In this document: piece by piece, positions 51,734 through 54,846 of the stretch
Position numbering within the stretch: the stretch's first letter is position 1
Layout: every line of letters begins with the position of its first letter
Assembly: GCF_900115715.1 (NCBI RefSeq)
Contig: NZ_FOXM01000009.1
Coordinates: forward strand, 62,001 to 126,000
DNA: 64,000 nucleotides
Source of the DNA: Geopseudomonas sagittaria
GTDB lineage: Bacteria; Pseudomonadota; Gammaproteobacteria; Pseudomonadales; Pseudomonadaceae
Direction of reading: 5' to 3'
Notes under the pieces: model-generated
Databases searched by the model: none
What the model saw: only the letters and a program-made list of their open reading frames with translations
Told to the model about the DNA's origin: nothing
Made by a program: the position numbers and the translations under genes

Positions 51734-52897
51734 TTACAGGTAGTAGGCCTTCAGCGGCGGGAAGCCGTTGAATTCCACCGCGCTGTAGCTGGTGGTGTAG
51801 GCACCGGTGGACAGCCAGTACAGGCGGTCGCCGATGGCCAGGTTCAGCGGCAGGCCGTACTTGTAGTTCTCGTACATGATGTCGGCGCTGTCGCAGGTCG
51901 GACCGGCGATCACCACCTCTTCCAGCTCGCCCTTCTTCTCGGTCCAGATGGGGAACTTGATGGCTTCGTCCATGGTTTCGATCAGGCCGGAGAACTTGCC
52001 CACGTCGGTGTACACCCAGCGCTCGACGGCGGTACGCGACTTGCGCGCGACCAGCACCACTTCGCTGACCAGGATGCCGGCGTTGGCGATCAGCGAGCGG
52101 CCCGGCTCAAGGATGATTTCCGGCAGGTCGTCGCCGAAGTCTTCCTTGAGGAAGCGGATGATCTCTTCGGCGTAGGTTTCCAGGCTGTTGGTGCGGGTGA
52201 TGTAGTTGGCCGGGAAGCCGCCACCCATGTTGATCATCTTCAGCTCGATGCCGTCTTCTTCCTTGAGGCGCTCGAAGATCACCTTGACCTTGGCGATGGC
52301 GGCGTCCCACACGGAGATGTCGCGCTGCTGCGAGCCGACGTGGAAGGACACGCCGTAGGGCACCAGGCCCAGATCGCGGGCGAGGATCAGCAGGTCCATG
52401 GCCATGTCGGTCTGGCAGCCGAACTTGCGCGACAGCGGCCAGTCGGCCGTGGTCGAGCCTTCGGTGAGGATGCGCACGTAGACCTTGGAGCCCGGCGCGG
52501 CCTTGGCGATGTTGCGCAGGTCGGCTTCCGAGTCGGTGGCGTACATGCGCACGCCCTTGTCGTAGAAGTAGCGGATGTCCTTGGACTTCTTGATGGTGTT
52601 GCCGTAGCTGATGCGCTCCGGACCGACGCCGCGGGACATCACCTTGTCCAGCTCGTAGATCGAGGCGATGTCGAAGTTGGAGCCCTTTTCCTTGAGCAGG
52701 TCGATGATCTCGACCGCCGGGTTGGCCTTGACCGCGTAGTAGACCTTGGCGAACTCGAAGCCGGCACGCAGGTCGTCGTAGGCCTTGTCGATGATCGCGG
52801 TGTCGATCAGGACGAAGGGGGTTTCCTTCTGGTCGGCAAACGCCTTCATCTTCTTGAAGGTGTCGCGGTCGTAATAGTCTTCAACCTTGATGGTCAT
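51734..52897 (-). CDS. speC: Ornithine decarboxylase (fold III, PLP-dependent)
   Basis: The 387-residue product is a eukaryotic-type ornithine decarboxylase that makes putrescine. The PLP lysine is in VYYAVKANPAVEII. Other landmarks are GVSFHVGSQQRD (His stacking on PLP), GGGFP, EPGRSLIANAG and GPTCDSADIMYENYKYGLPL with the Cys of the partner subunit. I start at 52895-52897. An upstream ORF and hairpin lie in its leader, which suggests regulation by polyamines or ornithine. Confidence 0.93.
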   Translation of the reverse strand: MTIKVEDYYDRDTFKKMKAFADQKETPFVLIDTAIIDKAYDDLRAGFEFAKVYYAVKANPAVEIIDLLKEKGSNFDIASIYELDKVMSRGVGPERISYGNTIKKSKDIRYFYDKGVRMYATDSEADLRNIAKAAPGSKVYVRILTEGSTTADWPLSRKFGCQTDMAMDLLILARDLGLVPYGVSFHVGSQQRDISVWDAAIAKVKVIFERLKEEDGIELKMINMGGGFPANYITRTNSLETYAEEIIRFLKEDFGDDLPEIILEPGRSLIANAGILVSEVVLVARKSRTAVERWVYTDVGKFSGLIETMDEAIKFPIWTEKKGELEEVVIAGPTCDSADIMYENYKYGLPLNLAIGDRLYWLSTGAYTTSYSAVEFNGFPPLKAYYL

Positions 52898-52984
52898 GCT
52901 CGGCTGGGCTCCAAAATGGGAAAAACACAAAAGTTTCAAGGGGCTGTCACTGAACGCCTAATCCGTATCCCCACTTTGGTTCGC

Positions 52985-53101
52985 CTACTTCCCAAGGCAT
53001 GTCGCCGAAAGCAAAAAGGTCAACCGCGCGTCGTGCTCGATGGCGGGTTGACCTTGCTGTCTCGTCGTCAGTACTTGAGCCGGATGGATCGTTTCCAGCA
53101 T
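52985..53101 (-). other. Possible 38-codon leader ORF upstream of speC
   Basis: An ATG at 53099-53101 opens a frame of 38 codons ending in TAG at 52985. It begins MLETIHPAQVLTTRQQG and ends DARLTFLLSATCLGK. Its middle is the terminator-like hairpin at 53013-53055. No good ribosome binding site precedes the ATG, so translation is uncertain. It lies in the speC leader on the speC strand. Confidence 0.4.
53013..53055 (-). terminator. Intrinsic-terminator-like hairpin in speC leader
   Basis: On the minus strand AAGGTCAACC pairs with GGTTGACCTT, then TTT follows directly. The loop also has CCGC/GCGG pairing. It lies 120 bases upstream of the speC ATG. It is a complete terminator ahead of a gene in the same direction, so either it attenuates speC or it ends a separate short RNA. 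Confidence 0.75.
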
Positions 53102-53208
53102 GGACGTTCGGGCGCGAACTTTAGGACCAAGGGGGGTCAAGATCAACCAGAAATTTCCCCAATTTGCCCCCGCTCATCACCAGCGGGTCAGCAGGGGGGC
53201 GCATCCGC

Positions 53209-53262: not shown

Positions 53263-54846
<1,584 letters not shown>

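Follow-up and report, generated by a model that had tools for sequence, protein, structure and literature searches.

The hairpin upstream of the ornithine decarboxylase gene speC of Geopseudomonas sagittaria belongs to a larger conserved RNA in the speC 5' leader, of which it forms the variable arm, P3. We identified this RNA in a 64,000-nucleotide stretch of DNA (the window) and found it in all eight genomes of the window's genus. Based on the RNA structure, covariation in its closing stem P1, the P3 hairpin, the link to speC, and the spacing from the promoter, we consider it probable that the leader is an undescribed riboswitch-type cis-regulatory element, which would act on the translation of SpeC. 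The site is not convincing as a terminator and unsupported as a peptide, whereas the case for a riboswitch-like RNA family, apparently undescribed, is strong.

A conserved structured RNA in the speC leader

The leader RNA measures 120 to 180 nt in most loci, and the window copy, which was part of the covariance model's alignment, scored 147.2 bits with cmsearch. In the proposed architecture, stem P1 closes the element, hairpins P2 and P4 present invariant loops, P3 forms a variable peripheral arm, and the joints are long, invariant, and single stranded (Table 1). Mean identity over 400 random pairs of leaders was 0.96 and 0.93 in the core blocks, compared to 0.77 in the first 120 nt of speC, 0.60 in the linker, and 0.62 in the upstream sequence. 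This comparison and the P3 tests cover 170 of the 178 leaders, as the other 8 could not be parsed. The first-pass annotation had marked positions 53101 to 52985, which lie within the actual feature and make up only a fragment of it.

Table 1. Positions of the speC leader RNA, its parts, and neighboring features in the window
Feature	Positions	Strand	Remarks
Whole conserved structured leader RNA (P1 to P1)	53109-52952	minus	191-nt query matches 389/398 family genomes
P1 5' strand GAACGTC	53103-53109	minus	Covaries with 52958-52952
P1 3' strand GGCGTTC	52952-52958	minus	Covaries with 5' strand
P2 hairpin GCUG...CGGC	53079-53099	minus	Loop with invariant ACGAUCCAU; stem invariant in 97 distinct rows
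Lower pairs flanking P3	53070-53066 with 53004-53000	minus	One pair changes from U-A to C-G
P3 arm	53006-53064	minus	Contains hairpin 53055-53016
Hairpin AAGGTCAACC...GGTTGACCTT	53055-53016	minus	Inside arm P3
P4 hairpin GCCU/AGGC	52983-52998	minus	Invariant loop UGGGAAGU; stem unvarying except for a one-row gap
38-codon ORF	ATG 53101 to TAG 52985	minus	Rejected as a conserved gene: frame not conserved
Conserved segment GGCGAACCAAAGUGGGGAUAC	52965-52985	minus	Candidate anti-Shine-Dalgarno strand
Linker stretch UUCCCAUUUUGG	52911-52922	minus	Complements CCAAAGUGGGGA (52979-52968), runs into the Shine-Dalgarno sequence
Sigma-70-type speC promoter	53146-53118	minus	TTGATC 53146-53141, 17-nt spacer, TAAAGT 53123-53118
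speC Shine-Dalgarno sequence GGAG	52909-52912	minus	11 nt before ATG; 3/4 bases paired in the minimum-energy fold
speC, alanine-racemase-fold ornithine decarboxylase	51734-52897	minus	Pfam PF02784 (8.5e-55) and PF00278

Pairing in P1 is maintained across the family through compensatory changes, with A-U going to G-C and C-G, G-C to A-U, U-A to C-G, and C-G to U-A. In alignment A3 (100 sources selected for diversity, 97 distinct rows), every lettered P1 cell pairs and four of the seven pairs are changed on both sides; the rows of A3 had been fitted to the structure of the covariance model. A recount over 178 distinct cores gave 1243 paired cells out of 1246. The pattern used to extract leaders required the first five bases of P1 and most of its last five, and at the two positions that it left free, 353 of 356 cells pair. 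This pattern missed 10 loci: nine members with P1 variants, which were added by hand for a wider P1 count, and one (L215) cut by the end of its locus. The wider count covered 224 loci, some genomes being counted twice. It showed 11 combinations of P1 strands, and 1564 of its 1568 cells pair. Variants include GAACATC/GATGTTC (G-C to A-U), GAGCGTC/GGCGCTC (A-U to G-C), and GACCGTC/GATGGTC (A-U to C-G). Ten loci that repeat another place were excluded from the leader set. A further alignment, A2, held 63 of 100 distinct cores, with L044 and L080 omitted for their long P3; four degraded leaders (L106, L107, L109, and L110) and two insert-bearing leaders (L087 and L104) were omitted from both alignments.

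Over the 23 pairs of the whole structure, 99.5% of cells pair compared to 98.4% after shuffling, and 36 cells are double-changed compared to 1.5, with 0 of 500 shuffles as high in either test, the shuffles ignoring relatedness. Further pair types numbered 14 against 11.9 in shuffles, 14 of 500 being as high. The P2 and P4 stems are invariant, as is a possible pseudoknot of UUGG with CCAA in the P4 region, so these pairings are proposed from the sequence. RNAalifold additionally offered small UCA/UGA and CCA/UGG hairpins in nearly invariant columns. Among the 100 aligned leaders, 42 unpaired positions are invariant, including ACGAUCCAU, UCAAGUAC, UGGGAAGU, and CCAAA.UGGGGA.AC. P1 and the inner stem of P3 are thus covarying helices around an invariant unpaired core, as is expected of a riboswitch.

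The closing pairs of P3 form in 167 of 170 leaders, with a mean z of -3.48 against mononucleotide shuffles, and the inner stem covaries with some cells broken. Because the length of this arm between the two P1 strands ranges from 21 to 170 nt, P1 would reflect pairing in RNA and not a DNA dyad. P3 occurs in two types, one of which (CGAGACAGC...) is that of the window. In L087 and L104, insertions in the P3 region extend the cores to 270 and 280 nt, which is consistent with a peripheral arm.

The first-pass annotation had read the hairpin as an intrinsic-terminator-like structure spanned by a 38-codon ORF. The hairpin is real: it ends 119 nt before the speC ATG, lies in conserved surroundings, and is directly followed by TTTGCTTTC, which gives five consecutive T. 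The coordinates of the ORF were also borne out, and we agree that no Shine-Dalgarno sequence is seen before it. Folded alone, positions 53075 to 52980 reach -37.1 kcal/mol compared to -27.0 +/- 3.4 for shuffled sequences, with 3 of 200 shuffles as good. A consensus terminator scan, which accepts loops of 3 to 8 nt only, did not list the hairpin; terminator-like sites between 51000 and 54500 showed no excess (2 found, 2.5 expected), and the exact hairpin pattern occurs in one place only in its own genome. The strongest evidence that the hairpin is more than chance is comparative, as the surrounding sequence is kept across the family. Sites resembling AAGGTCAACC with at most one mismatch number 11 in the whole window against 2.0 expected (0 of 100 shuffles as many); 8 of the 11 lie outside the leader region, and coding bias is the probable cause of the excess.

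The promoter is positioned such that the speC transcript is predicted to start at about 53111, only a few bases away from P1. Of 151 distinct upstream sequences, 143 have a TA(A/C)AGT-like hexamer that begins 13 to 16 nt before P1. In the stretches upstream of the 178 leaders, TTGATC at a spacing of 17 was counted 126 times. The nearest solved structures to SpeC are lysine/ornithine decarboxylases (5gjm, 9.3e-50); NCBIfam matches are all below threshold, the best being lysA, so the exact substrate assignment rests on relatives. SpeC converts ornithine to putrescine (PMC12152252). A divergent gene on the plus strand (53263-54846) shares the intergenic region, and a TATAAT lies on its strand in that gap. 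This gene is putatively prfC, encoding release factor 3.

Distribution and association with speC

Counted as matches to the 191-nt query, the leader reaches 18 of the 19 genera of the family. Eight of the nine unmatched genomes had no detectable SpeC ortholog, and the ninth had only SpeC residues 106 to 387; completeness is under 90% in four of these nine genomes. Five of them carry only SpeC relatives of 28 to 30% identity, which are probably diaminopimelate decarboxylases, and in three no relative reaches E 1e-20. In the family, at least four genomes retain speC behind a shortened or degraded leader (L106, L107, L109, and L110 in G166, G342, G267, and G396, respectively), which indicates that the element can be lost. 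The decay in these four leaders amounts to a set of natural experiments on function.

Across the species-genome collection, a pattern for the 3' core matched at least 119 stretches. Of the 119 loci listed, 116 have speC downstream in the same orientation, and the other three end first; the titles listed name Pseudomonas, Stutzerimonas, Halopseudomonas, Azomonas, and Pseudomonadaceae or gammaproteobacterial bins. Genome counts and promoter position together would place a conserved structured RNA in the 5' untranslated region of one metabolic gene, as is expected of a riboswitch. Wherever the covariance model was applied, it found one copy per matched genome or locus. A 31-nt match on a second contig (C28, L009) was considered as another genomic copy and dismissed as chance, since it lies inside a long open frame and lacks the T-tract.

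A covariance-model search of the order matched 14 of 293 genomes, comprising 13 from the family and one weak match outside it (E 0.044); because the filters of this search were stricter and only few candidates in each genome were scored, it might have missed divergent copies. We judged the weak match to be chance; it lies upstream of a gene that presumably is gltX-like. Filter-free searches of five SpeC relatives from outside the family (58 to 80% identity) revealed no motif, the best score being 10.5 bits compared to at least 119 for aligned members. One of these loci, L164 of a genome outside the order (G801), encodes a SpeC 80% identical to that of the window and lacks the leader, which suggests that only the coding sequence was transferred horizontally. 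Phages and plasmids searched with blastn and viral contigs searched with the exact pattern gave no match.

Pairing near the Shine-Dalgarno sequence and a proposed switch

The 3' core of the RNA, GGCGAACCAAAGUGGGG, complements the stretch immediately before the speC Shine-Dalgarno sequence. In the window, UUCCCAUUUUGG and CCAAAGUGGGGA form 12 consecutive pairs with a duplex energy of -18.0 kcal/mol, and the same 12 pairs appear in the minimum-energy fold of the leader. The partner word of GGCGAAC, GTTY[N]GCC, occurs in 114 of 166 speC linkers compared to 3 of 251 control Shine-Dalgarno regions, which precede the presumed starts of other long ORFs in these loci. Two other partner words are GTTTCCC (7/166 versus 1/251) and TTTGG (49/166 versus 2/251); all three words are absent from 24 of the 166 linkers. 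For the consensus 21-nt segment, the duplex energy is -15.77 kcal/mol in speC linkers compared to -11.45 kcal/mol in control regions, and the reversed segment showed no difference between linkers and controls; the linkers are mutually related, and therefore the P values of this comparison overstate the case. When each genome's own core segment was used, the complementarity was clear in 14 of 18 genera, which stood at -13.2 or lower. Of the other four, g18 (-12.6) and g19 (-11.5) were close to the control mean of -11.45, and g7 (-10.6) and g12 (-10.2) were weaker than it; nine of the 18 genera are represented by one or two members.

The register of the complementarity varies between clades. A pairing between CCAAAGUGGG and CCCAUUUUGG, our first guess, suits the window as well as some clades but beat shuffled linkers in only 72% of loci, while AGGCGAACCAAAGT and CGGCGACATGCCTT each did so in 92%. 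The P3-side segment CGGCGACAUGCCUU equals AGGCGAACCAAAGU against shuffled linkers, the core segment CGGCGACAUGCC is likewise above its controls, and CUGGAAACGAUCC from P2 also has a weak excess (-6.61 versus -5.76). A GGCUC/GAGYC pairing at the Shine-Dalgarno sequence was rejected, with GGCTCAAGTACTGA beating shuffles in 72% and CATCCGGCTCAAG being weaker than controls. In four g7 loci (L096, L097, L101, and L105) and six of eight g5 loci, the linker between motif and speC holds a second CGTTC or GGCGNTC that resembles the P1 3' strand and might possibly serve there as a platform for strand exchange. CGTTC also occurs in 8 of 159 other linkers, which are shorter (mean, 67 nt).

These complementarities are consistent with two exclusive states, in which either the core masks the Shine-Dalgarno region or the core is folded with P1 and P4. 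In the absence of signal, the invariant 3' core would pair just before the speC Shine-Dalgarno sequence and hinder ribosome entry; with signal bound, the core would be kept in its P1/P4 fold and the linker released. If these states hold, a signal that stabilizes the core would turn translation on. In nearest-neighbor fold ensembles of 196 leaders, pairing of GGCGAA with the Shine-Dalgarno region has a mean probability of 0.61 and the Shine-Dalgarno sequence is unpaired with 0.56, while in whole leaders P1 (about 0.00) and P4 (0.06) hardly ever form. The aptamer-like state of the window lies at -68.8 compared to a minimum of -80.9, making it 12 kcal/mol less stable, a cost greater than the binding of a ligand by itself usually covers. 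Because this gap is large and the energy model takes no account of pseudoknots or tertiary contacts, polarity is the weakest step of the proposal.

In the loci checked, speC is the only gene with which the element occurs. The natural guess is therefore a signal from the ornithine-polyamine pathway, probably one of its metabolites. With an ON polarity, L-ornithine would be the first candidate ligand, through feed-forward control; a polyamine acting with the opposite polarity, as an OFF switch, is possible. Association with one gene in one family means that gene context cannot narrow the ligand. We propose only tentatively that the leader represents a new riboswitch class, spread across the Pseudomonadaceae and dedicated to speC, whose natural ligand would be L-ornithine or one of the polyamines putrescine and spermidine.

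Alternative readings, known leaders, and significance

The regulation of speC through its leader, as anticipated by the first-pass annotation, is likely. The same conserved RNA might be the binding site of a protein that controls speC translation up or down; candidates would be SpeC, a ribosomal protein, an RNA-binding protein, or Hfq acting together with a partner. Strong conservation ahead of a single target gene fits this reading equally well, and autoregulatory leaders are often confined to one gene and one lineage. However, the 42 unpaired positions that never vary are distributed among several joints and loops and would exceed what most protein sites need, and we regard a protein site as rather unlikely. 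Transcription attenuation, in which the P3 hairpin and T-tract would end some transcripts at least in the window's clade, is less likely again. The stem and T-tract do resemble an intrinsic terminator, and at least four T follow in 86 of 98 leaders of the window's P3 type despite varying stem sequence. However, such a run is found in only 1 of the 80 other leaders and in 87 of 178 overall, which argues against attenuation as the conserved function. No alternative antiterminator pairing was seen by eye, the T-rich strand partly pairs inside P3 (UUGCU with AGCAA), and the conserved RNA extends beyond the hairpin. Leaky termination in the window's own clade is conceivable.

The first-pass annotation had also raised a separate small RNA ending at the hairpin and a leader peptide encoded by the 38-codon ORF. 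The promoter and the hairpin with its T-tract would delimit a free transcript of about 100 nt, but the 3' half of the element, including the P1 closing strand that covaries with the 5' half, lies past the hairpin, and the element is attached to speC in the loci checked; for this reason, a small RNA appears very improbable. Even less credible is a peptide that senses ornithine or arginine in the manner of orf34 or SpeFL, the leader peptide of speF in Escherichia coli. In its favor, the window does contain the ORF, and a start codon stands at the corresponding position in 164 of 178 leaders. Alignment of the speC leaders, however, showed that the frame is not conserved: the start codon is missing in 14 of the 178, the last eight residues of the window's ORF are kept in 19, and ORF lengths range from 8 to about 450 codons. 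Indels in P2 (GCTGGAAACG to GCTGAAACG) and length changes in P3 break the frame, and the predicted transcript start leaves scant room for a Shine-Dalgarno sequence ahead of the ATG.

Among known systems, translational ON riboswitches of the add adenine type have an aptamer core closed by P1 and a strand that can alternatively mask the Shine-Dalgarno region. The speC leader likewise is a 5' leader with a P1-closed conserved core and a core strand that may mask the Shine-Dalgarno region, but it differs in the layout of its variable P3 arm and in having no match in Rfam 15. With an intrinsic terminator, the window shares a GC-rich stem followed by a T-run, but the run is absent in 91 of 178 homologs and the hairpin is an arm of a larger fold. 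The spermidine riboswitch, a SAM-I variant, is also an RNA leader of polyamine biosynthesis genes; PMC10853860 places it in Gram-positive genera, with a SAM-I fold and control by transcription termination, whereas the speC leader has no covariance match to SAM-I, including the spermidine variant. The Salmonella speF leader with orf34 is, like the speC leader, a long ornithine decarboxylase leader with alternative structures, one of which masks the ribosome-binding site, but according to PMC6386406 it requires a translated conserved short ORF and Rho, and the speC leader has no conserved ORF. Both the spermidine riboswitch and the speF leader thus resemble the speC leader in purpose and not by descent.

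No Rfam 15 family matched the window's leader, or 20 diverse homologs, at the gathering threshold; below threshold, only microRNA families appeared (E 3.8 in the window; E 0.12 outside the motif in L042). None of the publications at the top of our literature search results described the speC leader. By title or abstract start, no publication found to mention PA4519, which we take to be the speC tag of Pseudomonas aeruginosa, concerned the leader; uses of this term in drug databases presumably mean something else. If our reading is true, the leader would be, as far as known and searched, the first natural aptamer for ornithine or putrescine, or else the first Gram-negative polyamine riboswitch. 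To our knowledge, polyamine control through RNA has long been proposed and rarely proven. The evidence for earlier claims of this kind is called unconvincing in PMC10853860.

A highly conserved leader with no Rfam 15 match in a much-studied family would offer a tractable system in harmless laboratory strains, for example, in Pseudomonas putida KT2440. Searches based on GC contrast, which have yielded many recent riboswitch candidates, favored low-GC genomes (PMC11109978), so GC-rich genomes like those of Pseudomonas may hold more such RNAs. In Pseudomonas syringae, loss of the SpeA or SpeC route alone leaves intracellular polyamines unchanged (PMC10017717). The way in which the SpeA and SpeC routes share putrescine production might also find its explanation in the leader.
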